A stretch of DNA of 64,000 nucleotides from Plumapathes pennacea. Its lineage: Eukaryota; Cnidaria; Anthozoa; Antipatharia; Myriopathidae. A program made the position numbers and the translations under genes. Within the stretch, counting starts at the first letter, position 1. Each line of letters starts with the position of its first letter. The stretch lies in the NCBI GenBank assembly GCA_964036295.1, contig OZ038468.1, positions 14,274,683 through 14,338,682 on the forward strand, read 5' to 3'. Under the pieces are notes generated by a model. The model worked only from the letters and a program-made list of their open reading frames with translations, was not told where the DNA came from and did no database searches. Below, one piece after another: positions 8,431 through 64,000 of the stretch.

Positions 8431-18773
<10,343 letters not shown>

Positions 18774-32230: not shown

Positions 32231-32270
<40 letters not shown>

Positions 32271-35200
32271 TACAGCAATCATCCTGACTTTCTAAAAAAT
32301 ACGCGTATTGCGAACGCATGTCCCTCTTGAATTAGAAGTAGTACCAGCAGCAACTGCAACAGCAATACTAGCAGTAACTGTGCACACGGCACCTGCACCG
32401 TTACAGGACAGCTCTTTCTCACCGGTTCGGTCGGCAGCAGCAACTGCTTCAGGAATCTCGCTCGGTCTCTCACGTCGTAGTTTTGGTCGTACTTGGCAAG
32501 ATTGAGCACATACTGACAAATCAACTTGGTCTGCAAGGAGAAAAGAAAAAGAAGGTCCGCTACAGGTTCCGGAGAAAAAAAAAAAACTGCGCAAAAACAA
32601 GAAGGAACTTGGCAAGATAATTCCACCAGAACATTAAAGATGGGAAACATGCAGTGGGATACTGTATGTAAAAATACAGTATTCATGAGTCCCATTACCT
32701 TACAAAGATACATTATTTCCTCGAGAAAGCGTCCGGGATACTTACTTTTCAAATCTCGCATTCAACAGGGGCAAAAAATCGAGGAGGGGGTGGGGGAGGG
32801 GCGCTTATTAGAGGAACAAGGCATTACGTTATTACATATCGTCAAGTTTCACAAAGTGGCTCGTCTCAGCTAATCCAATGTTTTGTTTACACACGAGAAT
32901 GCATACAAACCCGAGCACGAACAAATACAGAAAATGATGGTAAAATACGTAGAGAACATTTCAGGTCAAACAACTAATCTTCACAAACGAGTCAGTTAAA
33001 AAGGATCCCCATGAAAGCTAAATCGAGTTTCGAGAAGATGGCGGTCAATCAATCACTCCAGGCGCGCAGAGGATTGTGGTCGAATTTCACGGCTCGTTAG
33101 CTCTACTATTCACTACAGTACCTGTTTGGGATTTGTAATCAACAGTTTGACGCCGAGGTTTAGTATCTGTAGCTTGACAATATCCTCCTGTGTAGAAAAA
33201 AGGGAAAGCATCGCCAAACAGAATCACTTAGAGTGGTGAAATACAAATTCTCGTTTCAATTCATAAAGAGAACCTACAGATACATCAATTGTCTTTTGCG
33301 TGAGGGATTTCACGTTCACGTTTGAACGATTTTCATTAAAGTATAACGTAGTTGAATGAAGTATTGTAAGTACTTTATGTATGAAAGGGAATCAGATGCT
33401 AAGTTGTATACAGAACTACATAGCATTTCTCAGAGGTTGAAACGAGCATACATGTGTTGCACATTGCTTGGATTCAAAGGGGCAGTGTCATAAATGCGCA
33501 TGCGCAAAATCCAAGATGGCGTCCACAAGTGAATTCTGATAACTCGAACCCTCGATTAACTCGAAACTCTCGATATCTCAAACCACACGTCGTTTCCCTT
33601 TGATTTGCTAGACACTGTAATTTTACCCTCGATAACTTGAACTCCCAATAATTCAAACCAAATTGTTTCCCTTGGGGGTTCGAGTTATCGGGTTCCACTG
33701 TATCTCTAAAGATAATGCCATGTATTCTGACCAGCTTCTTACTTCAGATCCAAAGGTCTTGGCCATTTTCCGGAGGACGTCCGGTGCAACCTTGGGAACT
33801 CGTTCTGCATACTCTCCGACCAACCATAAAATGCTTGCCCTGGCCATTGGTACCTTGTGGAGAATAATACTTGTCAATACCGCAGTACAGAAGCCCTATT
33901 GCTGTTAAATGCATTGAGTGCCCAATAAAGGCCATGCCACATGAGGCAATTTTTCCTGCAACATGTTTCGCAACGCTGACGACAGTATGTCACACGATGC
34001 AACAAATCCTCGCCATGTTGCGAAAAGTAGAAAACTGTTCAACTTTTCCTGCAACTTATCTCGCAATTTCTTGTTGCGTTGCAAGTTGTAAAGGGGGTGT
34101 CGCACGCGCAACTTCTTCTGCCACTTGTCTCGCAACGGCGTTGCGTTGCAATTGCAAGAAAATTTGCCTCGTGTGATATGGCCTTAACTGCCAACGGTTT
34201 TCTTCGTATAATGCTTCGATTGAAGGACGTTTATGATCCGACGAAGGACTCTTGCGGACTATTTGCAAAAAAAAAAACAAACAAAAACTGGTCACAAACA
34301 GGCAATACAGAAAACTTACAGTGATGGAATCCACGAGCTTGGCCATGTGTGCAATGATGTCTGAATTGCCCTTTGGCTGAAATTCAAAAGAAGAAGAAAA
34401 ACAATATGCATTTTACAGATGATGATAGGAGATGGTGGTGGTGATAATAGTCTTGGATATAGTCATGAGCTCATGATGATAATGATTATTATGATGGTGA
34501 CGATGATGATGATTACCATGATGAATGATGACGGTGATAATGATGATGAAGACAACAGCGAGGAATGATCATGGTGATGACGACGATATGATATTGATCA
34601 TGATGACGACGATGATGATGATGATGATGATGATGATGACAAGGATGATGACGATGATGATGATAATGACGATGATGATGATAATGATAATGATGATGAT
34701 GACGATGAAGATGATGATGACGAAAATATATTTTGTTCTCTTCAACTATCAAAGAACGTTTCCATTAAAATACCTTACCTTCAGCTGCAGTAGTTTCTTT
34801 ATCACCACCACACTTTCAGCAACTACAACCTCTGTCAAAAAAAGTTTGAAGACTTTTTAAGTACGAGTATTCAAGGTGAACTGACCTCTAACTCCCACCA
34901 TTCTGTTCACAAATCAGCTATCCTGCTTCTGTACAAGATTAAACTACAGAGCCCGGTTTTTCAAAGCACGATTAGGCTAATCCCGGATCAGTTCTAGATT
35001 TTCTTGTCATTTATAAGCCTGAAGATTTGAAGGTTTCGTCCACAACAACTCCCTTGATACGTTTTAAGCTAGAGCAAGCTTTTTAATCAATCTTCAAACA
35101 GAACCCTGCAGTTTATTAGCAGAGAGGTCGAGAGAAAGAATTTCGTTAATTCTGGATTTCGGCTTTCTAACAACTGGGCCCCAGTACAATCAACAACAAC

Positions 35201-44786: not shown

Positions 44787-46390
44787 TAGAATGCTGTTTA
44801 ATCAAGCTTCAGAAGCCGCTGCTGATCTCTGCAGCTTTCTCTGTTTCTCATGTTCTTTTTAACTACCTGCAAAGGTCCGTAGACAAGCCGCGCCCTGGGG
44901 CCCCGTCCACTCCGTTTTTGTTTGAAAACACATACTTTTTTATGCGATTTTTTCTTTCCGTCCACACTCGATGACTTAAAAACGGAGGTTTTCAAAAATG
45001 GTTTTCAAAGGGGAAACTTTCGACAACCGAAGCATTATTAAACGAAAACGAATTAGTGTGGATGAGTGACTCGAAAACGGAGGATTAGTGTGGACGGGCA
45101 AAAACGAAGATTTTGAAGTACGCATTCGTTAGTGTGTTTGAAAGTTATTGTAGGCTAAAATGTCGAAACCAAATCCATTTTTACCTGATTTAATGCACTA
45201 CAGCTATTGAATTCAAGGAAACTGTTTAATCCCCCGCAAAATATTTGAGATGGGCTGTTACACCTAGACGATTTTTAACAACACATCGTATCGTTGCAAA
45301 TCGTTTAACTTCCAAGCTCAAAATACATGGGCAATGCAGATAGACTGACAGTTTAATTAGGTGGTACCATAGATTAACTGCGTCGGCGTGGTGACAAAAA
45401 CGCTGGTGTATTAACTGAGAGCTGTTTGAGGTACTGGAATGGCGATCATTTAATGGTAAATTCAACGACTATTTAATGGCAAATTATTTGTTTGCCATAG
45501 AGAGGTGTCCGCTTTTGAGAGCTCAGTTACTGGGAAACAAGTGAAATTCGGCAGGGACCAAATTTGATGTCCACCTTAGAGAGTGTCCGCTTAGTTTTAC
45601 TAAAGCGGCCAATCAGAAGTGTAAGGAATTAATTGCTTTTGCTCCTGATTGGCCAAGTTTACAGGGTTAGTGGCTACATCCACACACTAAGGCTACGCCC
45701 ACACTAATGTGTTTTCTAAAAGCTCTATTTTCGCCCGTCCACACACTAATCCTCCGTCTTCGAGTTGCCCGTCCACACAAAGGGTCCACAAAATAGAGAA
45801 TAGAATGGAAATTCCAGTGGGGTGAGCAAAAATTGGCCTTGCAGATGGGGGGAGGGGTGGGGTTATTGTGAGAAGGGGCTTATTCCAAGCTCATTCCCAT
45901 TGGCTCACAGGAGACTTTGATTAGTTAGGTGGGCAATACTTTAAAAATCCGCAAAACTCAATAACGTTGCCCCAAAAACGCAACTGACCGAAACAGTCAC
46001 TCGATTACTTTCATCATTACCCAAATGCCTAAATATTTGGCCTGAATCTACCAAAAAGTGGCGATTTTTTTGTTAGCGCATAAATTCTATCATGTTTTTT
46101 TTTTTTTTTTTTTTTCGAGTACTGTTGTACTGTTGACCAAAGCAAAGAGTAAAACAGGCAACATTTTTGATGTGGTTTTTCACAAAGAACGATCGGTCCA
46201 TAAATTCCTTGAAAAGTTGCAGCACGTTCAATTTTCACGCGACACAACTGCAACTTAATATCACACTGTTCACTAAAATAACAATTATAATAAAATGACT
46301 TACTTGTGTACCATCAAAGAAAAAGCAGAACACACACACACACACACAGAAAGAAACGTCCCTCATGTAAAGCACAGTTAAGAGACACTC
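44787..46390. other. Intergenic region with MITE remnants
   Basis: It holds an element at 44897-45100 and a related piece at 45691-45780 built from 'GTCCACACTAAT' and 'AAAACGGAGG' words, a Tigger-like piece at 45490-45605, a T-run at 46095-46115 and a short CA repeat near 46330. A TTAA-family MITE fragment lies just outside at about 44535-44640 in the preceding gene's last intron. No gene is supported. Confidence 0.6.
44897..45100. mobile_element. MITE with GTCCACACT repeats
   Basis: Left GGGGCCCCGTCCACTCCGTT, interior AAAACGGAGGTTTTCAAAAA, right GGAGGATTAGTGTGGACGGG. The ends are roughly inverted and the inner words recur at 45691-45780 in the other orientation. Confidence 0.65.
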
Positions 46391-46536
46391 GAGGATTTTT
46401 CTCCCCTTTATTCGCTATAAATCAAAACTAAATCCCTCTAATGCGTCTCCAGCCACGTAGACATCAGCAAAACACAAGTAATTTGTTTTTCAATGCATCC
46501 CCAGCCCAACCAAATGGTCATCAACTGCTTGTCCAT
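46330..46536 (-). other. 3'UTR exon and poly(A) signal of unit A
   Basis: Acceptor TTTTGCAG before 46536; donor of the preceding intron after 46882. The exon carries no long frame and has AATAAA (complement at 46407-46412). Homologous exons end at 49896, 54693, 59282 and 62271 in the other units. Confidence 0.75.
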
Positions 46537-46894
46537 CTGCAAAAGAGAAAGCAAACACGTAAGAAATCATCATCTTTTTAGTGTCCTGACTTTACTGACA
46601 AGGTTCCTTTAAATGTCAACTGCATCCAAACAGCAAGTCTTTAGGAAAGTCGCCCTGTAAAAATTATAAGATAAAAGAGGTTAAAAAATAGAACTAAGGC
46701 CTTCAATTTTCTGAGGGCCATCATTAACTGAGATCGGTGCCTAAATCTTGCATTGGAACGCGTTCACAATGTTTAACAATCAGTCACTCCAAACAGATCG
46801 ATGTAAGAAAACGTGGATGTTACAACGGGGAATGGGAAATGAGGTCAAAGAAGCCGACAGAACTACCAGCTTATGACTCACCTCAAGGCCACCA

Positions 46895-47729
46895 CTAAGC
46901 GCATGGGCAAAGACGACGCACATCAAAGTTATGCCCATCGGCACAATCTATTGTTTCAGGGACATCGGTTAGTCCATAACAGTGATTATTCGATGTTCGA
47001 ATACAAGGGTTATCAGTGAAGTAGTAGGCTTGTCCACTTGCACAAGGGAAACCAAGTCTTCGAAAAATCTCCCCTGTATTTCCGTCTCTCGGAAAACCTC
47101 TTTGCTCGACACATTCCATGCCAGACTTTCTACAAAAGTCGTTACAGCTTTCCGCTGGTTCTGCTATGAAGTACTTGGTGGCTTAAAAAGAGAAGAATAA
47201 ATTAACTTTACTTATCGTAATATGAACATTTCTAGTAACGCCCTTACTTACTCGTTAGGCTGAATTCTATTTTGAAACGCTCTCATTGAAATGTTGAGAT
47301 ATCCAATGTGGGATAATAAAATGAGGTTAAATTAAAAATTTGCGAAACTGTAAAGTAACGAAAATAAAGAGAAAATGATACTGAAGGGAGATCTACAGAC
47401 ATCAAGGCAACGTTACGTCTATACTGTTCACAGACACACATATATATACACCACACATATATACTAAAACACGCGCGCACACACACATACTCGCACAAAC
47501 TCTTTCCAGTTCTTCAATATCCCCTGCCAGTTCTTCAATCATGCATTACATAGATCACACACATACACATACACATGCATCACATACATGGAGCACATGC
47601 TCTTTCCAGTGAAGCTAAATCGTTCTTCAGTTCAGAGAACTTATTCCTGCAACTTAGAGCCATCTGAGCCATGGCGGCGTTGATCGCCACAATAACAATC
47701 AAGAGCAGCAGAAGGGTTTTTATGTTCAT
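46895..47729 (-). CDS. Secreted cysteine-rich protein, array unit A (142 aa)
   Basis: Coding exons 47729-47588 (signal peptide and linker) and 47181-46895 (cysteine-rich module) join at CCA T|CC (phase 1). The first ~22 residues are a classic signal peptide with LLLLLIVIV, ending near AMAQ. A short helical linker (RNKFSELKNDLASLERACAP) follows. The second exon has SCNDFC, GMEC, LGFPC, NPC, HCYG, IDC and ends RRLCPCA then TAG. The SC-x3-C ... RRLCPC frame resembles the C-terminal cysteine-rich tail of MGAT5-type glycosyltransferases (from family recall). No enzyme domain is present, so this is a small secreted protein of unknown role. A third, untranslated exon starts at 46536, with AATAAA at about 46407-46412. 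Start ATG chosen because it lies about 40 nt after the predicted TATA-driven start site. Confidence 0.88.
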
Positions 47730-47794
47730 TGTAACCTGATGAAAAAGAACAGAGAAATTAATGGCGTGATCACAAGCGGCCCAGACTCTTGTTG

Positions 47795-47803
47795 TATATA
47801 TAT
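47795..47803 (-). promoter_or_regulatory. TATA box of unit A
   Basis: TATATATAT lies about 66-74 nt upstream of the ATG, in a block (TATA, AGCGGCCCAG, GTGATCACGCCATTAATTTC) that is nearly identical before units B and C. Expected transcription start is about 47768. Confidence 0.7.
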
Positions 47804-48102
47804 TGCGGAACATAAGGTTGTAAAGAACTGACGTATGGAGGAAAGTAACGATCTCGATATCTCTTGGGATTATGAATAATACTAGAAATTAACATCCTGT
47901 AACTTTAATTATGGTCTCTTAAATGTGTGTGAGGGGAGAATCCTCGATAGGATTTCAACAGTTAATAGTGGCCATAAGTAGCCTCAAATCGACACACTAA
48001 AGACACAACAAACGACAAACAGCAGGAAACGCAGGTTTGTTTTAAATTTCATTTAGAATCCTGTAAATTAACCGATCATTTCTTTCCGACTCCCCTCAAG
48101 AG

Positions 48103-48368
48103 AATGGGCCGCCTGTGGCGCGATAAGTTCGAAATTGCAACAGACTTTTTCCACTATGCAGGAAATGAACATTTTCGCAGTGGATCTAGTTGGCAGAGTT
48201 GGAGGAACCAATAACATAAGATACAAGCTTCAGAGTCGCTCTCGCAAAAGCAAATTAGATTATAGTTGTTCGCAAGGGAAAGCAGGCGAAAGAACTGTCG
48301 GCCGGTCTATCACACGGGGGGTTAGAGAAAATATCTGTGTCAGGGCGTTTTTTACGCAAGTTTTATAG
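48103..48368 (+). other. Plus-strand repeated block, frameshifted relative to units B and C
   Basis: Homologous to the open frames at 52863-53117 and 57454-57708, upstream of and divergent from the unit A gene. A 7-base length difference near 48145 breaks the frame; the rest (DLVGRVGG, RYKLQSRSRKSKLDYSC) stays open. It is probably not a gene. Confidence 0.4.
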
Positions 48369-48704
48369 CTGGGACATGTATATTTTTAGTACATGGACTA
48401 CGAGACCTGAAATCAAGTCAAAGCTGGGAAGGAGGAGAAGATTAATAAACAAGACCGCCTTACTTACGTGTACAGAACTGTTTCCAGTCAACTGATTTCA
48501 GGTGTGCTGATCTTAAGCTGAAGGGATGTACTCACTCGTGAAGTCAAGATAAACTGACGTGTCTCTAGTCGCGTGAGGTGAATTTCAAAAGGACCAAGAC
48601 ATGGCAACGTTGGATCGTTTGAAAACATCCAAAATTGTTTTGAATAAGCCAAGTCCATTCATAGTATTGTTTATATGTTCTCTCAAAAGTAGGCTTCTTT
48701 TAAA

Positions 48705-48976
48705 ACCCGGACCCGAATGTACCAGCGTGTTAGCGCCAGCCCAAAGGATAACTCGTTATCCAGCTAATAAATAAGATTAAACGTTAACACTTATCTACTG
48801 AATAGTGACTGTGTTACCTAAAGCTCGTTATATCTATGTATCCATTATCTTGTAGTATAGCCTTAAAATAATTCCTAATTACAAACTCATTTCAATTCTT
48901 ACTATAAATAAACACTATTGTTCTCCCTGAACTTATCCGGTGAATGGCATTATCCACTTTATGAACAACCGGGCCC
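48705..48976. mobile_element. Old MITE with CCCGGGCCC-type ends, unit A copy
   Basis: AAACCCGGACCCGAATGTA at the left and AACAACCGGGCCCTA at the right, with TTATCC near both ends. Copies sit at the same place in units B (about 53460-53745), C (about 58048-58315) and partly D (about 61380-61420), so insertion preceded array growth. Confidence 0.65.
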
Positions 48977-49725
48977 TAAAAATACGAGACGTGATTTCTA
49001 TTTCACATAAAACGAAAAATTTTACCTGAAAATATGGTACAATTAGATCATTTTTTATGTTTTCGTGGCAAGTGTCATAACAATGTCAAAACCGGCTCCC
49101 ATTTGCTATGACAAGTGTATTCCAATTGGACGAAACGACACGACACGACCGTCAGAAAACGATACGACACGAACATCGATCACGGACGATGCAAAAGGTG
49201 CAAAAGGTGAAGGCGAATACGGAAAGGAAAACTGCAAGTGCATGTCGCGAATAACAGTAACATTCTGGGCGATGAGGAATGTAGGGTGATAAAATTGTTG
49301 ACAGACCCTCAGTAAAGTTGATTGCGCTCGCGATCACGTGCGCAGCTCGTTTTTGGACCCTGACCTGAGTTGGTGTTTGAATAGAAAACCTGTTCAATAA
49401 AATTCTATTAGTCTCACAGGCACAAAGTTCATGTGACAAAATGGTCCCTGACTACTGTAGTATTAGACTGCAAACAGTCCCTCCTTTTCCCGCCAAGATC
49501 GTGTAAGCGAGCGAGCGTGGTAAGAACAGGGCGCGTGGAGAATCTTGGATCTCGTCCACTGAACTTCAACATCTGCACTTTAATTCACATATGTGTGCAA
49601 TGACCGCTAAATCAAAAATAGTTTAAGAAATTGTTGAAACTGCCTGCTAGTCTGAAAAAGAAAACGTATTTCCACGGTGTTCAAAGGAGCCCGTGTTTAG
49701 TTGCCCCGCGTCACCGAAATGCAAA

Positions 49726-49727
<2 letters not shown>

Positions 49728-49759
<32 letters not shown>

Positions 49760-49763
49760 AGAG
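49728..49763. repeat. (CA)n microsatellite, unit B
   Basis: Positionally equivalent to CA tracts near 46330, 54530 and 59097. Lengths differ between units. Confidence 0.9.
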
Positions 49764-49799
49764 AAAGAAACGTCCTTCATGTAAAACACAATTAAGGGG

Positions 49800-49896
49800 A
49801 CACGTGACGGCATTCTCTCCTGTTTTATTTACACTCAAACCCAAGCTTTCTTTTTCAATGCGTCCCTAGCCACACGAGGATCAACTGCTGGTTGAT
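49800..49896 (-). other. 3'UTR exon and poly(A) signal of unit B
   Basis: Acceptor CTCTTGCAG before 49896, AATAAA complement at 49824-49829. Separated from the coding exon by a 1.8-kb intron that holds two MITEs. Confidence 0.72.
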
Positions 49897-50001
49897 CTGC
49901 AAGAGAGGAAATAAAACCATAAGACAGCATCATTTTTTGAGTGTCCTGAGCTTACTGACAAGGTTCCTTCAAATCTCATTTGCATCCACACGGCAAACCA
50001 A

Positions 50002-50221
50002 CGGTGCGTTCGATTGTGTCAATTCCGGAACAGGAAAAGCGCTGCCGATCGGTAAATTGTTTGTTTGGAGCTGATTTAAGTTTGGATTAGTCGGGAACTG
50101 TTCAGAATGCAAGCATGGAGTTTTTAAAACAATTTCAAGCAAAATCTCCCACACCACACAAGCAAAAATTTCGGTCATTTTAGCTGTTCCTATTCCGGAA
50201 CAGACCCAATCGAACGCACCC
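50002..50221. mobile_element. MITE with GGTGCGTTCGATTG ends, unit B copy
   Basis: GGTGCGTTCGATTGTGTCAA at the left mirrors CAGACCCAATCGAACGCACC at the right, and TTCCGGAACAG sits near both ends. A copy is also present in unit C (54799-55020) but missing in unit D, where the flanks join directly (about 59387). Confidence 0.87.
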
Positions 50222-50591
50222 TAAAAGAGGTTAACAAAGAAACAAGTCCTTCAATTGTCTCAAGGCCCTCGTTAACTGGGATTGAACCGAAATCGGTACC
50301 AAAGATTGCATTGGAGCGCTTTTACATTGTTGAAAAATCGGTCAGATCGATGCGCAAGAAAACATCCAACCTCGTTCCCAGAACCGTTCCTTTCCGGATT
50401 GGAGAGGACAGAGCCTGGGAACGAGTTTGGAAAACGTCGACTGTTCACACCAGGCTCCCATTTATCATAGATTGGTTACGCTTAGAAAAATACAAAAATC
50501 GTTCAGGTCAGCATAACATCCTAATTAACAACGAACAACCACACTCAAAACTGTTTGTATGCTGGCGTCTTGCTTGGTGGCGTGGAACTAA

Positions 50592-51472
50592 TGTACCGAT
50601 CAATTCGAAACTCGCACATCCCCCCCCCCCCCCCCCCCCGGGCAACCCCCCGGGCATTTGAACTTTTCGATTTTCCGTTGGTCAAATTCCCCACCCTCGG
50701 GCCAAAATGACTGTTCAAATGCCCCGGTTTAAGGCTGAATTTAGTGGTCAAATGCCCCACCCCCGGGGCAAAAAAACGCTGAAAAACAGATACACGTCTA
50801 ACAATTTGACTTGTTATTGTGAAAGTCGCGCGCGTCCGAGCTTGATAACGGTGGGTACGTTGGCTAAAATTGTTTCTTTAAGCGAATTACACTGTAGGAA
50901 GTAAATACGAGTGATTGCAAGACTGAAGCAGATTTATAAACTATTTATATACTGGGCAAAGGGAAAAAAGTCGAAGGGAATTGACACGTTTGTTGACAAG
51001 AAATGCCGCGAGTCGTGTTCCGACGCGCCGAGGGTATTAAAGTCGTTGATATTTTTCTTTAAACCGTACGGCTAACAAAATGCATTTATTTAACATCCAA
51101 TGATAAGGTTTCAAACCATACCTTGAGCGAAACAGCGCTTATTGCGAGTTGTTTAAATCGTAACGGCGCAACATCGGAGATTGATCCTCGATAAATGAAC
51201 GTTGTGCTTGGAACATTCACTGATATGCCTCTCAATTTAGACAAAATAAACACTTAGCACACAACGTACGCACAGCTAAAACACTTTCGCGTAAAGCAGG
51301 GCGAAATTGAGGGAACGAGTTCAAATTCCCCACCCCTCCGTGGTTGTGGTCAAATGCCCCACCCCGGGCGAGAGCGGTTGGTCAAATTCCCGCCTCCCCG
51401 GGCAAGGGAGGCGGTCAAATGCCCGGGGTATGCCCGGGGGGGGGATGTGCGAGTTTCAAATTGATCGGTACA
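50592..51472. mobile_element. 881-bp TAA-flanked element, present only in unit B
   Basis: TGTACCGATCAATT opens it and the complement closes it, with TAA at 50589-50591 and 51473-51475. The empty site is intact in unit C (GGAACTAATGTACAAGAG at about 56057). C- and G-runs sit just inside each end, and there are repeated 'TCAAATGCCCC' words. No transposase frame. Confidence 0.93.
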
Positions 51473-51754
51473 TAATGTACAAGAGTTCTAAGAACCTTCG
51501 ACAGTTGCGCTAATACTGATTGCGTGCACCAACAATCGACGAGAGCGGTGTTACGCTGGTCAACGCCGCTCAAAATTCACGTAACTTTTTCGCAAGTATT
51601 TGAAACGACCTAAAAACGTACGGCATGATACAGCACTGCAAATATTGCAAAAAATTTGTTCGAGGTGGGGTGTTACACTTAAACGATTTTAACATAACAT
51701 CGTATAGTTGAAGTAGCAGCTTATAAAGACTCACCATCAGGCCTGCCTGCACCA

Positions 51755-52515
51755 CTAAGCGCATGGGCAAAGACGGCGACTCATAGCATTACTAGCGGCA
51801 CAATTTATTCTTTCAGGGACACTGCGGGTCTTGCCATAAACGCAGGAATTAAACTCTACTAAAAAGCAGGGCGTGTATGGAAGGTTGGAGGGTGCATGAG
51901 CTGCACAAGTAAAACCAAGTCTTTTAAACAAATCCACTACATCTCCGTTCTTCGGAAAACCTCTGAACGCGACACACTTCATGAGTGACTTTCTACAAAA
52001 GGTGTCACAGCTTTCCCCAGCTTCTGCTACGAAGTATTTGTTAGCTTGAAAAGAGAAGAATAAATTAGGATTGTTTTAACATAGTATTACATCGTAATAT
52101 GAAACACTTTTATAATATCGTTAGTTACTCGTCAAGTTAAACTCCATTTTGAAAGGCCAGCCATTCAAGGATTGAACTATGCGACATAACTCAAGTGAAA
52201 TTAAATTAAAATCAGCAAAACTGTGACGTAACGTAAACTAAAGAGGAGACACTCAGGAGACCTACAGACATCAAAGCCTTTCGTCTGTAATATCCAACAC
52301 ACATGCATTACATACATCACACACATACACGTACACATGCATCACATACATGGAGCACATGCTCTTTCCAGTGCGGCGAAATCGTTCTTTAGCTCAGAGG
52401 CGATATTGTTCTTGAGCTTAGAGAACTTATTCCTGCAAGTTTGAGCCATCTGAGCCACGGTGGCGTTGATCGCCACGAAGACAATCAAGAGCAGCAGAAG
52501 GGTTTTTGTGTTCAT
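51755..52515 (-). CDS. Secreted cysteine-rich protein, array unit B (151 aa)
   Basis: Coding exons 52515-52350 and 52044-51755, in frame (456 nt). Signal peptide MNTKTLLLLLIVFVAINATV, then a linker eight residues longer than in unit A, because the LKNxxAxELKN piece is duplicated. The module has SC and C four residues apart, KC, LGFTC, TPC, SCVYG, INC and RRLCPCA. Its middle loop (AAHAPSNLPYTPCFLVEF) is unlike unit A. Donor GTATGTGATG and acceptor TTTTCAAG are the same as in the sister genes. The frame is open upstream of the chosen ATG, but the TATA box at 52581-52590 puts the start site close to it. Function unknown; secretion is inferred. Confidence 0.88.
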
Positions 52516-52580
52516 TGTAACCTGATGAAAAAGAACAGAGAAATTAATGGCGTGATCACAAGCGGCCCAGGCTCTTGTTG

Positions 52581-52590
52581 TATATATATA
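52581..52590 (-). promoter_or_regulatory. TATA box of unit B
   Basis: TATATATATA, same spacing to the ATG as in unit A, embedded in the same conserved block. Confidence 0.7.
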
Positions 52591-52862
52591 GCACAACATA
52601 AGATAGTAAGGAAACTGATGTATGGAGGAAAATAACGATCTGGATATATCTTAGGATTATGAATAAAACTAGAAATTAACGTCCTGTAACTTTTATCGTG
52701 GTCTCTTGAATGTGTGTGAGGGAAGAATTCTCGATAGTAGAGTAAGTAGAGTAGTAAGACACAAGAAACGACAAACAGCAGGAAGCGCAGGTTTGTTTTG
52801 AATTTTATTTAGAATCCAATAATTGAACAAAATCGTTCCTTTCCGATCCTTCACAAAAAAAA

Positions 52863-53117
52863 ATGGGCCGCCTGTGGCGTGATAAGTTCGAAATTGCACC
52901 AGACTATATGCAACAAATGAACATTTGCGCAGTGGATCTAGTCGGCAGAGTTGGAGGAACCAATAACATGAGATACAAGCTTCAGAGTCGCTCTCGCAAA
53001 GGCAAATTGGATTATAGTTGTACGCAAGGGAAAGTAGGTGAAAGAACTGTCGGCCGGTCTATCACACGGGTATTTAGAGAAAATATTTGTGTCAGGGCGT
53101 TTTTTACGCAAGTTTGA
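52863..53117 (+). other. Plus-strand open frame in unit B, doubtful gene
   Basis: 84 residues starting MGRLWRDKFEIAPDYMQQMN, basic, no recognised domain. Compared with the unit C copy I count about four amino-acid-changing and two silent differences, which gives no sign of purifying selection. It lies head-to-head with the secreted-protein gene. Confidence 0.3.
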
Positions 53118-54599
53118 TAGGGACGTGTATATTAATAATACAAGGACTACGAGACCTGAAATCAAACCAAAGCTGTGAAGGAGGAGAAGAAGTTTAAATA
53201 TACACGACGGCGTTACTTACGTGCAGAGAACTGTTTCCAGTCAACTGATTTCAAGTGTGCCGATCTTGTAGGGAGCAGAAGAGATGTACCGCACTCGTGA
53301 AGTCAAGACAAACTGACGTGTCTCTAGTCGCGTGAGGTGAATTTCAAAAGGACCAAGACATGGCAACGTTGGTCCGTTTGAAAACATCCTAAATTGTTTT
53401 GAATAAGCCAAGTCCATTCATAGTATTGTTTATATACTATCAAAAGTAGGCATCTTTCAAAACCCGGGCCCGGATGTACCAGCGTGTTGCGCCAGCCAAC
53501 TAATAAATCGTTATCCAGCTAATAAATACGTTTAAACTGATTAACACTTATCTACTGAATAGTTAGCTCGTTATATCCAGGTATCCTAGCTCGTTATATC
53601 CAGGTATCCATTATCTTGCAGTATAGCCTTAAAATAATTTCCTAATAACAAACTCATTTCAATTCTTAGTATAAATAAACACTATTGGTCTCCCTGAACT
53701 TTTCTGGTGAATAGCATTATCCACTCTATGAACAACCGGGCCCTAAAAATACGAGACGTGATTTCTATTTCACATAAAACGAAAAATTTGACCTGAAAAT
53801 ATGGTACAATTAGATCATTTTTTATGTTTTTGTGGCAAGTGTCATAGCAATGTCAAAACCGGCTCCCATTTGCTATGACAAGTGTATTCCAATTGGACGA
53901 AACGACACGACACGAACGTCACAAAATGATACGACACGAACATCGACCACGGACGATGCAAAAGGTGCAAAAGGTGAAGGCGAATGTCAATGCAAAAGGT
54001 GAAGGCGAATACGGAAAGGAAAACTGCAAGTGCATGTCGCGAATAACAGTAACATTCTGGGCGATGAGGAATGTAGGGTGATAAAATTGTTGACAGACCC
54101 TCAGTGAAGTTGATTGCGCGCGCGATCACGTGCGCAGCTCGTTTTTGGACCCTGACCTGAGTTGTTGTTTGAAGACTCGCTGAATAGAAAACCTGTTCAA
54201 TAAAATTCTATTAGTCTCACAGGCACAAAGTTCATGTGACAAAATGGTCCCTGACTACTGTAGTATTAGACTGCAAACAGTCCCTCCTTTTCCCGCCAAG
54301 ATTGTGTGAGCGAGCGAGCGTGGTAGGAACAGGGCACGTGGAGAATCTTGGGTCTCGTCCACTGAACTTCAACATCTGCACTGTAATTCACATATGTGTG
54401 CAATGACCGCTAAATCAAAAATAGTTTAAGAAATTGCTGAAACTGCCTGCTCGTCTGAAAAAGATAAAGTATTTCCGCAGTGTTCAAAGGAGCCCGTGTT
54501 TAGTTGCCCCGCGTCACCGAAATGCAAAACACACATACACACACAAGCACACAGAGAAAGAAACGTCCTTCATGTCAGTAAAACACAATTAAGGGGACA

Positions 54600-54693
54600 C
54601 GTGACGGCATTCTCTCCCGTTTTATTCACCCTTAAACCCAAGCTTTCTTTTTCAATACGTCCCTAGCCACATGAGGATCAACTGCTGGTTGAT
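54600..54693 (-). other. 3'UTR exon and poly(A) signal of unit C
   Basis: Acceptor before 54693, AATAAA complement at about 54620-54626. The same exon as in units A and B. Confidence 0.7.
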
Positions 54694-54798
54694 CTGCAAG
54701 AGAGAAAATAAAACCATAAGACAGCATCATTTTTTGAGTGTTCTGAGCTTACTGACAAGGTTCCTTCAAATCTCATTTGCATCTAGACGGCAAACCAA

Positions 54799-55020
54799 CG
54801 GTGCGTTCGATTGTGTCAATTCCGGAACAGGAATAGCGCTGCTGATCGGTAAATTGTTTGTTTGGAGCTGATTTAAGTTTGGATTAGTCGGGAGCTGTTC
54901 AGAATGCAATCATGGAGTTTTTAAAACAATTTCAAGCAAAATCTCCCACACCAGAACAAGCAAAAATTTGGGTCATTTTAGCTGTTCCTATTCCGGAACA
55001 GACCCAATCGAACGCACCCT
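54799..55020. mobile_element. MITE with GGTGCGTTCGATTG ends, unit C copy
   Basis: Near-identical to 50002-50221 at the same intron position, so inherited by duplication. Confidence 0.87.
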
Positions 55021-55022
55021 AA

Positions 55023-55692
55023 AGGTGATGTTACACGAGACGATTTTTAACGACAATTTTTAGCGACGATTTTTAATGCATGTTACACAAGACAACTTTT
55101 AGCGCAACATTGTTGCGGCAACGGCATGTTACACGAGATAATTTTTCGCGCAACATCCAGCTAGCATCCAGGCTCCTTCTCCAAAAACATGACAGCCTTT
55201 ACCAAAAGCAGAACTTTGTGCGAATGCTGAAGATTACCAGATGCGAACACGAAAAAGAATTGCTTGGACGAGGGAATGGATGAAGAGGAGAGAAGAAAAG
55301 GGGGTTTATCACCAGTTAGCCAGAGAATTAAACGTAAAAGATGAACTTTCGCTCGATATTTCCTGATGGCAAAAAACAAGTTCGACGAGCTGGCCGGCCG
55401 AGTCGCCACATAAATACAGAGGTTTAACACAATAATGAGGGCGTCAATAAGTCCTGTGACGTCAGTGTTGCGCGAAAAATCGACTGCGAGGGTGTTACAC
55501 GAAACAACTCCAACAAAATTCGAGCAACATTGTTGCATGCGTTTGAAGGCCATTCAAAAACTTTTAACATGTTACCGCAACGAAGATTGCGCTAAAAATC
55601 GTCCGGCGCGCCATGTTACACTATGACAATTTTTCGCGCAACATTGTTGCGCTAAAAATCGTCGTTAAAAATCGTCTCGTGTAACATCACCT
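55023..55692. mobile_element. 670-bp TAA-flanked element, present only in unit C
   Basis: Left AGGTGATGTTACACGAGACG and right CGTCTCGTGTAACATCACCT are exact complements over 20 bases. TAA flanks both sides (55020-55022 and 55693-55695). The unit B empty site reads CCCTAAAAGAGG at about 50219. The interior repeats GATTTTTAGCG and GCGCAACATTGTTGC words. Non-autonomous; PIF/Harbinger-type by its TAA target. Confidence 0.94.
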
Positions 55693-56330
55693 TAAAAGAG
55701 GTTAACAAAGAAGCAAGTCCTTCAATTGTCTCAAGGCCCTCGTTAACTGGGATTGAACCGAAATCGGTACCAAAGATTGCATTGGAGCGCTTTTACATTG
55801 TTGAAAAATCGGTCAGATCGATGCGCAAGAAAACATCCAACCTCATTCCCAGAACCGTTCCTTTCCGGATTGGAGAGGACAGAGCCTGGGAACGAGTTTG
55901 GAAAACGTCGACTGTTCACACCAGACTCCCATTTATCATAGATTGGTTACGCTTAGAATAATACAAAAATCGTTCAGGTCAGCATAACATCCTAATTAAC
56001 AACGAACAACCACACTCAAAACTGTTTGTATGCTGGCGTCTTGCTTGGTGGCGTGGAACTAATGTACAAGAGTTCTAAGAACCTTCGACAGTTGCGCTAA
56101 TACTGATTGCGTGCACCAAAAATCGACGAGAGCGGTGTTACGCTGGTCAACGCCGCTCAAAATTTACGCAACTTTTTCGCAAGTATTTGAAACGACCTAA
56201 AAACGTACGGCATGATGCAGCACTGCAAATATTGCGAAAAATCGTTCGAGGTGGGGTGTTACAAACGATTTTAACATCGCATAGTTGCAGTAGCAGCTTA
56301 TAAAGACTCACCGTCAGGCCTGCCGTACCA

Positions 56331-57091
56331 CTAAGCACATGGGCAAAGACGGCGTGTGTATTGATAACGAGCGGCACAATCTATTCTTTCAGGTACACTG
56401 CGGGAAGTATCTAAATAACAGTTACTATTCTCTTGGTCGATAGAGGGCCTCTCATCATAGCTGCTGATCACTTCACTTGCACAAGTAAAACCAAGTCTTT
56501 CAAACATATCCACTACATCTCCATCTTTCGGAAAACCTCTGAACGCGACACACTCCATGAGTGATTTTCTACAAAAGTCGTCACAGCTTTCCCCACGTTC
56601 TGCTACGAAGTACTTGTTGGCTTGAAAAGAGAAGAATAAATTAGGATTGTCTTAGCATACTATTATCCTAATATTGAACATTATAGTATCGTTAGTTACT
56701 CGTCAAGTTAACAACTCCATTTTGAAAGGCTAGCCGTTCGAGCATTGAGCTATCCTGCGATATAACTCAAGTGAAATTAAATCAAAAGCAGCAAAATTGT
56801 GAAGTAACGTAAACTAAAGAGGAGACACTCAGGAGACCTACAGACATCAAAGCCTTTCGTCTGTAATATCCAACACACATGCATTACATACATTACACAC
56901 ATACACATAAACATGCATCACATACATGGAGCACATGCTCTTTCCAGTGCGGCGAAATCGTTCTTTAGCTCATAGGCGATATTGTTCTTGAGCTCAGAGA
57001 ACTTATTCCTGCAAGTTTGAGCCATCTGAGCCATGGTGGCGTTGATCGCCACGAAGACAATCAAGAGCAGCAGAAGGGTTTTTGTGTTCAT
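56331..57091 (-). CDS. Secreted cysteine-rich protein, array unit C (151 aa)
   Basis: Coding exons 57091-56926 and 56620-56331, in frame. Exon 1 matches unit B, including the duplicated linker piece. Exon 2 keeps SCDDFC, MEC, LGFTC, NCYL, IDC and RRLCPCA, but the loop cysteine present in A and B is replaced: ...DERPSIDQENSNCYL. Thus this paralogue has an even rather than odd cysteine count in the module. TATA box at 57157-57164. The unit is otherwise the closest relative of B. Confidence 0.88.
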
Positions 57092-57156
57092 TGCAACCTG
57101 ATGGAAAAGAACAGAGAAATTAATGGCGTGATCACAAGCGGTCTAGGCTCTTATTG

Positions 57157-57164
57157 TATATAAC
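57157..57164 (-). promoter_or_regulatory. TATA box of unit C
   Basis: TATATAAC (plus-strand reading) in the conserved promoter block, slightly changed from units A and B. Confidence 0.6.
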
Positions 57165-57453
57165 GGAACATAAGATAGTAAGGAACTGATGTATGGAGGA
57201 AAATAACGATCTGGATATCTCTGAGGATTATGAATAATACTAGAAATTAACGTCCTGTAACTTTTATCGTGGTCTCTTGAATGTGTGTGAGGGAAGAATT
57301 CTCGATAGTAGGATTTCAACAATTAATAGTGGCCATAAGCAGCCTGAAAGACACAAGAAACGACAAACAGCAGGAAGCACAGGTTTGTTTTGAATTTCAT
57401 TTAGAATCCAATAATTGAACAAAATCGTTCCTTTCCGATCTTTCACAAAAAAA

Positions 57454-57708
57454 ATGGGCCGCCTGTGGCGTGACAAGTTCGAAATTGCACCAGACTATAT
57501 GCAACAAATGAACATTTACGCAGTGGATTTAGTCGGCACAGTTGGAGAAACCAATAACATGAGATACAAGCTTCAGAGTCGCTCTCGCAAAAGCAAATTG
57601 GATTATAGTTGTACGCAAGGGAAAGTAGGTGAAAGAACTGTCGGCCGGTCTATCACACGGGTATTTAGAGAAAATATTTGTGTCAGGGCGTTTTTTACGC
57701 AAGTTTGA
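57454..57708 (+). other. Plus-strand open frame in unit C, doubtful gene
   Basis: Copy of 52863-53117; an open frame also extends upstream to 57415. See the unit B entry for why coding is doubtful. Confidence 0.3.
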
Positions 57709-59090
57709 TAGGGACGTGTATATTAATAATACAAGGATTACGAGACCTGAAATCAAACCGAAGCTGTGAAGGAGGAGAAGAAGTTTAAATATACAAGACG
57801 GCGTTACTTACGTGCACAAAACTGTTTCCAGTCAACTGATTTCAAGTGTGCTGATCTTGAGCTGAAAGATGTACTCACTCGTAAAGTCAAGATAAACTGA
57901 CGTGTTTCTAGTCGCGTGAGTTGAATTTCAAAAGGACCAAGGCATGGCAACATTGGCCCGTTTGAAAACATCCAAAGTTGTTTTGAATAAGCCAAGTCCA
58001 TTCATAATATTGTTTATGTACTATTAAAAGTAAGCTTCTTTCTAAACCCGGGCCCGAATGTACAAGCGTGTTAACGCCAGCCAACGGATAAATCTTTATC
58101 CAGTTAATAAATAAGCTTAAACGTTAACACTTATCCACTGAATAGTGACTTACCTAGCTCGTTATATCCAGGTATCCATTATCTTGTAGTATAGCCTCAA
58201 AATAATTTCCTAATAACAAAATTATTTCAATTCTTAGTAAAAATAAACACTATTAGTCTGTCTTAACTTATCCGGTGAATAGCATTATCCACTCTTTAAA
58301 CAACCGGGCCCTAAAATCAGTCTGATCAAAAAACGAGACGTGATTGCTAATTTCACCTAAAACGAAAAAATTTACCTGAAAATATGGTAAATTTAGATCA
58401 TTTGTTTATGTTTTCTTATTAATCATGGCAAGTGTCATAACAATGTCAAAAGCGTCTACCATTTGGTATGACAGGTGTCTTCGAATTGGACGAAACGACA
58501 CGACACGAACGTCACGGACGCCTGTTCAATGCAAAAAGTGAAGACGAATACGGACAGAGAAACAGCAAGTGCATGTCGAGAATAGCAGTAGAATTCTGGG
58601 CGATGAGGAATGTAGGGCGAAAAAGTTGTTGACAAACCCTCAGTGAAGTTGATTACGCGCGCGATCACGTGCGCCGCTCGTGTTTGGACACTGATCTGAC
58701 TTGTTGTTTGAAGACTCGCTGAATAAAAAACCTGTTCAACAAAACCCTGTTAGTCTCACAGGCACAACATTCGTGTGACAAATTGGCCCCTGATTACTAT
58801 AGTATTAGATTGCAAACTGTCCCTACTTTCCTTTCTATTTCCCGCCAAGATCGTGTGAGCAATTGGCGAGCGCTAGAGTAACAAGTGCGGTAGGATCAGG
58901 GCGCGTAGAGAATCCTGGGTTTAGTCCACCGAACTACAAAATCTGCACTTGAATTTACATTTTTTTCAAGACCGCTGAATCAAAAACTAGTTTAAGAAAT
59001 TGCTGAAACTGCCTGATCGTCTGAAAAAGAAAACGTATTCCGCGGTGTTGAAACTGGAAGCCTGTGTATAGCTCCTCCGCGTCACCAAGC

Positions 59091-59096
<6 letters not shown>

Positions 59097-59148
<52 letters not shown>
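59097..59148. repeat. (CA)n microsatellite, unit D
   Basis: About 25 CA units, the longest of the array's equivalent tracts. Confidence 0.95.
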
Positions 59149-59151
<3 letters not shown>

Positions 59152-59631
59152 AAGAAACGTCCTTCATGTAAAACACAATTAAGGGACACGTGGGGGCATT
59201 CTGTCCCGTTTTATTCACCCTTAAACCCAAGCTTTCTTTTTCAATGAGTCCCTAGCCACATGAGGATCAACTGTTTGTTAATCTGCAAAAGAGGATATAA
59301 AACCGTAAAAAACTATCATTTTTGAGTGTGTGTCCTGAGCTTACTGACAAGGTTCCCTCAAATAGTCTCACTTGCATCCAGATGGCAAACCAAAAGAGGT
59401 TAAAAAAGAAACAAGTCCTTCAATTGCCTGTTGCCCCTCGTTAACTGGGATCGATCCGAAATCAGTATCTATAGGATCGCATTCACAGTGTTAAAAAGTC
59501 GGTCAGATCGATGTGTGAAATTGGAACGCGTTCACAATGTTTAACAATCAGTCACTCTCTACAGATCGATCTAAGAAAACAAGCCGGCAGTGCATGCTAG
59601 TAACAGCTTATGACTCACCTCCAGGCCACCA

Positions 59632-59959
59632 CTAAGCGCATGGGCAAAGACGACGTACATGTCCAGCGGTACAATTTATTGTTTGGGGGACTCCGGTATT
59701 TCCATAACAGCAATTATCCGATTTTCGAATACAAGGGTTATCAGTGAAGTAGTAGGCTTGTCCACTTGCACAAGGGAGAGTAAGTCTTCCAAATACCTCC
59801 CCTGTGTTTCCGTCTCTCGGGAAACCTCCTTGCTCGATACATTCCATTCTCCTGTATTTCCGTCACTCGGAAAACCTCCTTGTTTGACACATTCCATGCC
59901 AGACCTTCTACAAAAGTCGTTACAGCTTTCCGCTGGTTCTGCTATGAAGTACTTGGTGC
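59632..59959 (-). pseudogene. Unit D: broken copy of the secreted cysteine-rich gene
   Basis: Exon 2 is recognisable (acceptor at 59959, SCNDFC, and near the end NCCYG and VRRLCPCA). A 50-base segment starting TGGAATGTGTC at about 59898 is repeated directly at about 59848, which shifts the frame. The intron upstream matches unit A up to about 61090, but the signal-peptide exon that should follow is missing, replaced by unrelated sequence. Both defects make it a pseudogene. It is closest to unit A by its loop (YYFTDNPCIR). Its 3'UTR exon relic ends at 59282. Confidence 0.88.
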
Positions 59960-60049
59960 CTTGAAAAGAGAAGAATAAATTAAGTATATTTATTGTAATA
60001 TGAAACATTTTATAGTAACCTTATTTACTCGTCAGGCCGAATTTTACAT

Positions 60050-60806
60050 CGCCAGAAATTTCAGACATCCGGTTGCGCCATCAAAGGCATCTGGTTTCAC
60101 GCTGAGAGCCGCTCAAGAAATAACAAAGAAATGTATAGGATCTGATAATAAATTGCGCTTTTCGCTTAACTGAAGCACGTTCGTAAAAATGTTTGGGCAG
60201 CATTCGGAAGAGGAAAGCTTCCTAAACACAAAAGTACAAAAAATATTTATCTCCGGTAAAATTCGATGTGTACTTTTTTTAATTTAAAATTTCGGCCGAC
60301 GTAAGAAGGGATTGATAGCAGAATACGCTCAAAACCGGCTACTGTCACTTTTTAAGCTGCATTTAATCAAAGAGCCTTGGGTACAACGCAAAATGTTTAC
60401 CCCGTAACTGATTGTCGAAGGATTGAACATCTCCTGTGAAGCCCCGGTCAGTCCCTTGGACCAAATTCGATGTGTACTTTTTGCGTTTGAATTTGCAGTT
60501 CACAGCCAGCCGTGGCGAATGCCTCGTCCCCAATGCAGCGCATCCCGTGAAATACGCTGACTTCGGATGTTGATATTTTGGGCTAGGAAGCTCCAAATCG
60601 AATGAAAATTGCATCAAACGAAAGCAAATTTCAACTGGTTCGGTCAGCGGCACATCTCCTAAACGTAGCAGTCTCTTTTTGAACCGGAGAAACCCATCCC
60701 TCCCCCACCCCACTGAGGCAAAATATGAATGGCACATGCTCATACCGCACGCCGCTGGGAAAGACCGGAAGCAATCGTGGACGCAAAATGTCCGGAATTT
60801 CTGGCG
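60050..60806. mobile_element. 757-bp element inside the unit D intron
   Basis: CGCCAGAAATTTCAGACATC at the left is mirrored by TGTCCGGAATTTCTGGCG at the right. Absent from the matching place in unit A (about 47265). A 126-residue minus-strand open frame inside has no recognised domain. The target duplication is short or unclear (AT). Confidence 0.82.
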
Positions 60807-62199
60807 ATGATTTGGAAACGCTCTTATTGAAATGTTGAGATATCCAATATGGTGTAATAAAATTTAGTAAAATTACGCAAAACTGGAAAGTAACAAAAAT
60901 AAAGAGCAGATACTGAAGGGAGATCTACAGACATCAAGCCCGGACATCAGGCAACGTTTCATCGATACTACACACACACGCATATATACACCACATACAT
61001 ATATACATATAGTTTTACACGCACATACATACTTGCACAATCCCACTCCAGGTCTTCAATCTGCTCTGCCAGTTAATTCTTCAATATCCTCTGCCAGTTC
61101 TTCACTCTCGCCTTCCAATATGTCAGCAAGGTTTGTCAGACGAGTGATAATAAATTTCCACAGGTTTGCCGTGGTGTGGACTCTTAGTTACCACGATTCA
61201 CGTCATCACATGATCAAAATGTTGTGGACTTCACGAGGCGCTTCGCCGAGTGAAGTCAAAATAACCAAGTTTGTTTAGCTTTAAAGTTATATTTAGGTAA
61301 CCATTATCTTGCAGTATAGTCTCAATATAAATTTTAATAACAAACTCATTTCAAGTCTTAGTATAAGTAAACACACCGGTGAATAGCATTATCCATTTTT
61401 TGAACAACCGGACCCTAAAATCAGTCTAGAGTGTCATCAAAATACGAGACGTGATTGCTATTTCACATTGACGAAAAATTTTACCTGCAAATATGGTAGA
61501 TTCAGATCATTTTTTAATGTTTTCGTATTAATCACGGCAAGTGCCATAACAAAACCGGCTTCCATTTGCTATGACAAGTGTCTTCCAATTGGACGAAACG
61601 CGACACGACACGAACATCAATCACGGACGCCTGTTCAATGCAAAAGGTGAAGGCGAATACGGACAGGAAAACTGAAAGTGCATGTCGCGAAAAACAGTAA
61701 CATTCTGGGCGATGAGGAATGGAGGGTGATAAAATTGTTGACAGACCCTCAGTAAAGTTGATTACGCGCGCGATCTCGTGCGCCGCTCGTGTTTCGACCA
61801 TAACATTAGTTGCTTTGTGAAGACTCGTGCGACAGATTGGACCCTGATTACTATAGTATTAGACTGCAAATAGTCCCTCCTATTTCCGCCAAGATCGTTT
61901 AATCGAGATATTGAGCGCGTCTGTAGGAACAGGGCGCGCGAAGAATCCTGGGTATCGTCCACAACTTCGAAATCTGCACTTGAATTCACATTTTTGTGCA
62001 ATGACCGCTGAATCAAAAATAGTTTAAGAAATTGCTGAAGCTGCCTGCTTGTCTGAAAAAGAAAACGCGTGTTCCACGGTGTTCGAAGGAGTCCGTGTAT
62101 GGTTCCCCCACGTCACCAAACATGCAAACAAACAACACAAAGAAACGTCCTTCATGTATAACACAATTAAGGGGCACGTGAGGATTTCTCTCCCGTGTT

Positions 62200-62271
62200 T
62201 TATTCACCCTTAAACCCAAGCCTTTTTCTTCAATGCGTCCCTAGCCACACGAGGATCAACTGTTTGTTAAT
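62200..62271 (-). other. 3'UTR exon of unit E
   Basis: Acceptor CTTGCAG before 62271 and AATAAA complement at about 62200-62206, homologous to the other units. Confidence 0.68.
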
Positions 62272-62751
62272 CTGCAAGAGAGGAAATAAAACCATAAGAA
62301 AGCATCTTTTTTTTTAAGTTTCCTAAGTTTAACTGGACGAGGTTCCCTCAAATCTCATTTGCACCCAGACGGCAAACCCGTTAGAAAAGTCGCTCTGTGC
62401 TCAATTTTCTGAGCCAAACCTACCTAAAATAGAGTGCGATTTTTGAAAAAGCCGGAACTTTTGGTGTGTGTATACTGGCGCATTGCTTGATGGCGTGGAA
62501 CTAATACAAGACTTCTGACAACGTAAGAATCCTCGACATTTGCTGCTAACATTGCACCAAAAATCAACGAGAGTGGTGTTACACTGACCAACGCCGCTCA
62601 AAATGCACACAACTTTCTCACAAGCTTTTGAAAAGATTTCAAAAACGTACAACATGATGCAGCACTGCAAATATTGCAAAAACTCGTTCGAGGTTGGGTG
62701 CTATACCTGAACGATATTTAACGTAGCATCGTATAGTTGCAAATCGGCGGT

Positions 62752-63170
62752 GTCAAAACGGCCGGGGGGTACTCAATAGGAATTTGGGTGGGGTGTTCCG
62801 CTGACTCTATAAAACCCTGACCCTATTTAAGACACAAAAATGGAAATTTTGCTACCCTGTCTAAGACAAAGTGCTCTAATTTGATACCCTGTTCAAGACT
62901 AAGTTTAGATAAGTTAGCCTGCGTTGCACGCGTTTCCACTGGAACATATGAAGAAATCGAGTGAAAATGACGAGAGCAAAAATGTGGTTGAAGGGGGAGG
63001 GGAAGAGGATAAAATCTTGAGAAAATAACCCTATTTAAGACACGAAAATGTAAAATTTGATACCCTGTTTAAGACAGAAGACCCTGAAAATGATACCCTA
63101 TCGGGCGGAAAATACCTATATAGGAAATATATGGGAGTACCCCCCCCCCCCCCCCCGGGGGTCAAAACGG
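62752..63170. mobile_element. MITE with GTCAAAACGG / poly-C ends in unit E
   Basis: GTCAAAACGGCCGGGGGGTA at the left; GGGAGTACCCCC then GGGGGTCAAAACGG at the right. The inner CCCTATTTAAGACACAAAAA and TACCCTGTTCAAGAC words are repeated several times. Missing in units B and C at the same intron position. Confidence 0.78.
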
Positions 63171-63207
63171 CTCATAAAAAGACTCACCATCAGATCTGCT
63201 GGTACCA

Positions 63208-63944
63208 CTAAGCGCATGGGCAAAGACGGCGCACCAAAGGATGACTACCGGCACAATCTATTCTTTCAGGGACACTGCGGGAAGTCCCATAATAACACAT
63301 ATTATTCGTTGGTGCAATAAAGGGGATTATAGTGTACGGTGTAGTGTTTCCACTTGCACAAGTAGAACCAAGGTCTGCAAACATTTTCACTACATCTCCA
63401 TCTTTCGGAAAACCTCTGAACGCGACACACTCCATGAGTGACTTTCTACAAAAGGTGTCACAGCTTTCCCCAAGTTCTGCTACGAAGTACTTGTTGGCTT
63501 GAAAAGAGAAGAATAAATTAGGATTGTCTTTGCATACTATTATCGCCTTAATATTGAACATTATAGTATCGTTAGTTACTCGTCAAGTTAAGCTCCATTT
63601 TGAAAGGCCAGCCATTCAAAGATTGAGCTATCCAATGCCATATGACTCAATTGAAATTAAAGTAATATCAGAAAATCTGTGAAGTAACCGTAAACTAAAG
63701 AGGAGCCACTCAAGGAGACCTACAGACATCAAAGCCATTCGTCTGTAGTATCCAACACACATGCAATACATACATCACACACATACATACGCAAACACAT
63801 GCATAACATACATGGAGCACATGCTCTTTCCAGTGAAGCGAAATCGTTCTTTAGTTCAGTGAACTTATTCCTGCAAGTTTGAGCCATGGCGGCGCTGATC
63901 GCCACGAAGACAATCAAGAGCAGCAGAAGGGTTTTTGTGTTCAT
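63208..63944 (-). CDS. Secreted cysteine-rich protein, array unit E (140 aa)
   Basis: Coding exons 63944-63812 and 63497-63208, in frame (423 nt). Signal peptide MNTKTLLLLLIVFVAISAAM, short linker like unit A. The module has SCDTFC, MEC, LGSTC, MCYYG, IDC and RRLCPCA, with the loop cysteine missing as in unit C (PYTIIPFIAPTNN). The promoter, including the expected TATA box, falls beyond the right edge. The gene is complete in its coding part. Confidence 0.87.
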
Positions 63945-64000
63945 TGTAACCTGATAAAAAAGAACAGAGAAATTAATGGCGTGGTCACAAGAGGCCCAGG

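Follow-up and report, generated by a model that had tools for sequence, protein, structure and literature searches.

A tandem gene array in Plumapathes pennacea encoding small, predicted secreted proteins built on an MGAT5-tail-like module with a variable loop

We analysed a 64,000-nucleotide stretch of the antipatharian Plumapathes pennacea (C7:14274683-14338682, contig OZ038468.1; hereafter the window), which carries a tandem array of genes for small cysteine-rich proteins whose module resembles the C-terminal tail of the glycosyltransferase MGAT5; the genome searched comprised 290 Mb in 24 contigs. Within the window the array consists of four intact two-exon genes and one broken copy, all on the minus strand and running from position 63944 down to 46895 (Table 1), the layout that had been predicted from the letters of the DNA alone. 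All four intact genes splice in frame conceptually, with GT...AG introns of 305-406 bases that all lie in phase 1, and yield proteins of 142 (gene 1), 151 (gene 2), 151 (gene 3) and 140 (gene 4) amino acids. Exon 1 encodes a hydrophobic leader (MNTKTLLLLLIVFVAINA... in most copies) followed by a short neck, and exon 2 a module of about 95 residues that ends in RRLCPCA-stop; its cysteines follow the pattern S-C-x3-C, a mid C, (I/N)(D/N)C and RRLCPC, just as originally described. No exon 1 was found within 1.5 kb of the broken copy. The array continues past the window to about C7:14366000, so that it holds eleven copies in about 44 kb, 8 of them intact and 3 broken, and leader exons and splice sites are intact in all eight intact genes. 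The broken copy in the window (C7:14334317-14334639) has a twin with an identical internal duplication at C7:14344916-14345238, and this twin is flanked by copies closely related to genes 3 and 4, whose introns differ from theirs by 3.3% and 0.6%. The unit made up of gene 3, the broken copy and gene 4 thus looks to have been duplicated as a block, although the 3' flank of gene 4 is not matched by that of its twin. Since both broken copies share the same internal duplication, the break is likely to predate the block duplication.

Table 1. Features of the array within the window (window coordinates).
Feature	Position	Strand	Basis
Gene 1 exon 1, leader and cysteine-flanked neck	47588..47729	-	ATG, hydrophobic leader, GTATGT donor; in frame with exon 2
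Gene 1 exon 2, MGAT5-tail module to stop	46895..47181	-	PF15024 profile match, Cys motif
Gene 1 variable loop, module Cys47 to Cys68	46982..47041	-	paralogue comparison
Gene 2 exon 1, leader and longer neck	52350..52515	-	
Gene 2 exon 2, MGAT5-tail module to stop	51755..52044	-	splice frame, Cys motif, PF15024 match
Gene 2 variable loop	51845..51904	-	loop relative present in mosaic copy C7:14342418
Gene 3 exon 1, leader and longer neck	56926..57091	-	
Gene 3 exon 2, MGAT5-tail module to stop	56331..56620	-	PF15024 profile match, Cys motif
Gene 3 variable loop	56421..56480	-	paralogue comparison
Broken copy, module exon only, internal duplication shifts frame	about 59632..59960	-	
Gene 4 exon 1, leader and neck	63812..63944	-	
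Gene 4 exon 2, MGAT5-tail module to stop	63208..63497	-	splice frame, Cys motif, PF15024 match
Gene 4 variable loop	63298..63357	-	paralogue comparison

The leader resembles a cleavable signal peptide and is predicted to direct secretion. The segment behind it had been taken for a short charged linker, a description that we revise, as it is really a heptad-like stretch with a cysteine at both ends. Five of the eight intact array copies have the short form C-x3-F-x2-L-x3-(F/L)-x2-L-x3-C, and three, including genes 2 and 3 among the four intact copies of the window, the longer form C-x3-F-x2-L-x3-I-x3-L-x3-F-x2-L-x3-C. As its hydrophobic residues are spaced 4-3-4-3-4 and cysteines close it at both ends, the neck is predicted to form a short coiled coil capped by interchain disulfides. 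A module gene elsewhere on C7, L048, has the same 4-3-4-3-4 spacing in its neck, but Cys and Asn at two inner positions.

Searched against the genome, the gene 1 module gave 56 rows, which come to 52 places after joining of pieces, and 43 of these, on nine contigs, are uninterrupted over residues 4-94 or more; such recurrence excludes chance resemblance. We aligned 40 of the 43 uninterrupted modules, leaving out two near-identical twins and one place not fetched, and eight cysteines are invariant in all 40. Of the 34 distinct modules checked outside the array (35 references, one a duplicate), 33 have a module exon that begins in the same phase when judged by a simple acceptor rule, and the exons upstream of it vary. 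Leaders like those of the home array precede the module at L021, L030, L036, L037 and L048, and L036 also has a coiled-coil-like exon, for which Pfam gives coiled-coil-type matches, none of them above cut-off. Other companions are a PAN_1 match at L038 (6.1e-5), exons for PAN_1 (1.4e-5), EGF and two EGF_CA domains upstream of the module at L041:3815-6731, minus strand (C9:13.40 Mb), and a pentaxin exon (8.4e-24) upstream of the module at L042:4348-6334, minus strand (C10:6.515 Mb), a possible pentraxin fusion.

The original prediction had linked the module to the MGAT5 tail, and this relationship is borne out by profile search, structure comparison and an agreeing cysteine pattern. The MGAT5 family profile PF15024 matches all 40 aligned modules at E <= 0.01. 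Against its gathering cut-off of 28 bits, the whole protein of gene 3 scores above (28.4 bits) and that of gene 1 below (25.3 bits), with the gene 1 module alone reaching 27.6 bits. Both whole proteins cover profile positions 470-557 only, that is, the tail, and no GT-B catalytic domain precedes it in the spliced proteins of 140-151 amino acids. No other Pfam family rises above its cut-off in these two scanned proteins (the diapausin antimicrobial peptides are non-significant, E 0.31), and a profile search of the PDB places MGAT5 first, followed only by alpha-lactalbumins at 0.1 or worse. By structure prediction, the fold of the module agrees with the C-terminal domain of MGAT5. We take the module to hold four disulfides, one of them between Cys47 and Cys68, a pairing carried over from the human enzyme. 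In human MGAT5, five of the eight disulfides fall in the C-terminal domain, according to PMC6107550.

The original prediction left it undecided whether the module was detached from the MGAT5 tail or ancestral to it. The genome has its own MGAT5-type tails, in four rows on C9 (E 1.8e-7 to 0.02), of which L051 and L052 were examined. The tail of L051, traced by its tail exons, extends over three exons, the first of which reaches back into the end of the middle region of the GT18 profile (positions 449-488); L052 shows the two outer ones of these exons, and its first break, judged by eye, agrees in place and phase. Every uninterrupted free module, in contrast, is a single exon. A tree of 46 tips sets the human and L051 MGAT5 tails apart from the remaining 44 tips with support 100 and a long branch (2.5). 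The array members group together as 7 tips (support 100), of which six share a branch of 1.03, and four relatives from other sources, P0001-P0004, fall among the modules: P0002 joins the C6 cluster (92), P0003 joins L045 (90), and P0004 is nearest MGAT5 (93). As relatives from other sources lie within it, the module family is likely older than the home array. Given the multi-exon enzyme tail, the single-exon free modules and the fully supported split, detachment from MGAT5 with loss of introns is better supported than ancestry and would be the simplest reading, a direction that we infer from exon structure and tree.

In the loop between Cys47 and Cys68, most of the eight intact array copies are hard to align with one another. 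Over the 28 pairs of these copies, the loop has a mean nucleotide divergence of 0.484, compared with 0.119 for the preceding scaffold, 0.152 for the tail that follows, 0.162 for the intron and 0.054 for exon 1. The loop is more divergent than the intron in 27 of the 28 pairs, and in all 21 pairs that do not involve gene 1 (means 0.487 and 0.105). Between genes 2 and 3, for instance, identity reaches 98% in exon 1, 96% in the 3' flank and 93% in the intron, and drops to 76% in exon 2. One copy, C7:14342418, is a mosaic in exon 2: up to base 120 it follows the copy at 14331773 at 13 of 13 two-way sites, and from base 144 it follows the copy at 14327197 at 46 of 52. This switch of paralogue between bases 120 and 144 means either that loop-bearing halves have been exchanged between paralogues, or that flanks have been homogenised around loops that stayed different. 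The pooled Nei-Gojobori ratio of nonsynonymous to synonymous divergence (dN/dS) in the home array is 1.53 over columns 48-74, with dN greater than dS in 96% of codon bootstraps, and 0.77 before and 0.87 after the loop. A recent pair on C6 (7534/7574) has 11.7 nonsynonymous and 0.3 synonymous differences in the loop, a set from C2, C4 and C7 has a pooled loop dN/dS of 1.85, and a pair on C10 has one loop difference only. Codon likelihood detects constraint on the scaffold in the C1 set (p 0.0012) and in six C6 members (p 0.0056), and none in the C2/C4/C7 set (p 0.52). Diversification of the loop is clear as a pattern.

A leader, a neck and a disulfide-held fold with a copy-variable loop would suit the binding of a variable target. 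We lean, tentatively and at somewhat less than even confidence, towards reading the window genes as encoding secreted, putatively oligomeric binding proteins whose conserved cysteine scaffold would display a copy-specific loop for recognition. The leader would export the protein from the cell, the neck would link two or more chains through its coiled coil and disulfides, and an MGAT5-type fold with four disulfides would bear the loop, presumably closed by the 47-68 pair and particular to each copy. Through this loop the oligomer might bind a variable target, such as microbial or self glycans or proteins, or the proteins of prey or competitors, and unequal exchange among the tandem copies could renew the loops.

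Several observations weigh against this proposal. Signal peptide, coiled coil and oligomer are readings of sequence, four of the five structure models are poor (predicted local distance difference test scores, pLDDT, of 53.6-61.0), and the multi-domain links elsewhere in the genome rest on exon order and strand, with 3 of the 9 upstream pieces scanned with Pfam giving no match above a cut-off and 6 passing one. The acceptor-contact residues of MGAT5 named in PMC6107550 (D378, F380, W401 and K554) are placed outside the tail, so sugar binding should not be transferred to the module. Pooled loop dN/dS is below 1 in the C6 cluster (0.64), the C1 cluster (0.58) and the C7:14.515 pair (0.30). Tested by codon likelihood, omega (dN/dS) in the loop does not differ significantly from 1 in the home array (p 0.17), the six C6 members (0.70) or the C1 set (0.62), nor in the C2/C4/C7 set (p 0.077, over a 21-codon stretch only), and scaffold constraint is undetected in the home array (p 0.56). 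Synonymous divergence in the loop is high as well, and part of the loop's divergence may accordingly stem from mutation, conversion or misalignment.

A loop dN/dS not significantly different from 1 also fits a second possibility, that the proteins are structural components of mucus or extracellular matrix, forming disulfide-linked oligomers whose loop is simply free of constraint; companions such as PAN, EGF_CA and coiled-coil-like exons would suit such a role, and a gland-mucous cell type of coral larvae expresses a protein annotated as "6-beta-N-acetylglucosaminyltransferase-like" (PMC12225738), possibly a true MGAT5 or a free module. A neutral loop, however, would be expected to diverge at about the rate of the intron, and the observed loop exceeds it about threefold over the 28 pairs and more than fourfold in the 21 pairs without gene 1, and we regard this alternative as rather improbable. 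A conserved leader with a diversified mature exon is a pattern known from venom families, and the tandem array has just this combination. The genes could on that ground encode venom or nematocyst components, a secreted cysteine-scaffold family used on prey or foes, but the Pfam search of two whole proteins and the PDB profile search return nothing credible apart from MGAT5, and the PAN, EGF and pentaxin exons near relatives elsewhere in the genome suit recognition or matrix proteins at least as well; we hold a venom role to be unlikely. That a free tail regulates glycosylation, by binding the partner surface of MGAT5 or its substrates in competition with the enzyme, draws on the shared predicted fold and the MGAT5-type genes of the same genome, and seems very improbable given how poorly a hypervariable loop in many copies suits one conserved partner. 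Least credible is that these are functionless partial copies of an MGAT5 gene with frames open by chance: 3 of the 11 array copies are broken and the home-array codon tests detect no constraint, but the 43 uninterrupted places, the invariant cysteines, the constrained scaffolds of the C1 and C6 sets, the relatives P0001-P0004 and the intact leaders and splice sites all speak against it.

Beyond the array we can frame a wider proposal, which we consider doubtful: an animal lineage may have freed the accessory tail of a Golgi glycosyltransferase, which would have become a mobile extracellular domain carried by stems of coiled-coil, PAN-EGF and pentraxin type. One array may have diversified it into a secreted repertoire for recognition, with a disulfide-tethered loop that would be renewed by cassette exchange between tandem genes, a variable-head system other than the immunoglobulins. 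To our knowledge, the MGAT5 tail has so far been described only as an accessory part of the Golgi enzyme, and none of the matches listed from an open literature that leaves most subscription journals outside coverage describes a free, expanded family in its title or the opening of its abstract. If dozens of genes do carry the tail on its own, as an extracellular domain that has been shuffled and has a variable loop, it would be a protein module so far unrecognised, would offer a compact new scaffold for recognition through loops, and would make the stand-alone capability of an accessory domain directly testable. Automatic annotation would tend to label such modules as glycosyltransferases; two of the four outside relatives bear that Pfam label.

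The minus strand of the window also holds protein kinase exons at 10041-18254 (Pkinase 2.5e-8, above cut-off, and 3.2e-6, below; MEK-like by eye) and exons of an AP-3 beta adaptin-like gene at 22338-32761 (AP3B1_C_2 1.3e-17; Adaptin_N 1.4e-4, below cut-off). Elsewhere, C4:5724463-5765292 carries 11 GFP-like rows with long open frames and 34-35% identity to DsRed; they form two tandem runs of opposite orientation, with five rows on the minus strand and six on the plus strand, and fit a cnidarian genome without proving one.

Among known systems, the nearest is MGAT5 itself (GnT-V; CAZy GT18, Pfam PF15024), in which the module corresponds to the C-terminal domain G628-L741 of the human enzyme. 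Besides having one exon in place of three, the array proteins differ from it in lacking the GT-B catalytic domain, which a leader and a cysteine-flanked neck replace, and in ending at CPCA-stop, whereas L051 continues past CPC to a CxxC end (...CKNCG); the module family also differs in its many copies and hypervariable loop. Collectin-like and fibrinogen-related secreted recognition proteins would at most be alike in working, with a predicted coiled-coil neck, a C-terminal disulfide head and a variable surface. The SCRiPs of cnidarians, as described in PMC10892658, are likewise small, cysteine-rich and predicted to be secreted; the module studied here has credible matches to PF15024 (Pfam) and MGAT5 (PDB) only. 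Tandem families of secreted cysteine proteins with diversified loops are a known kind, and what is new, as far as we have seen, is the MGAT5 tail as their module.

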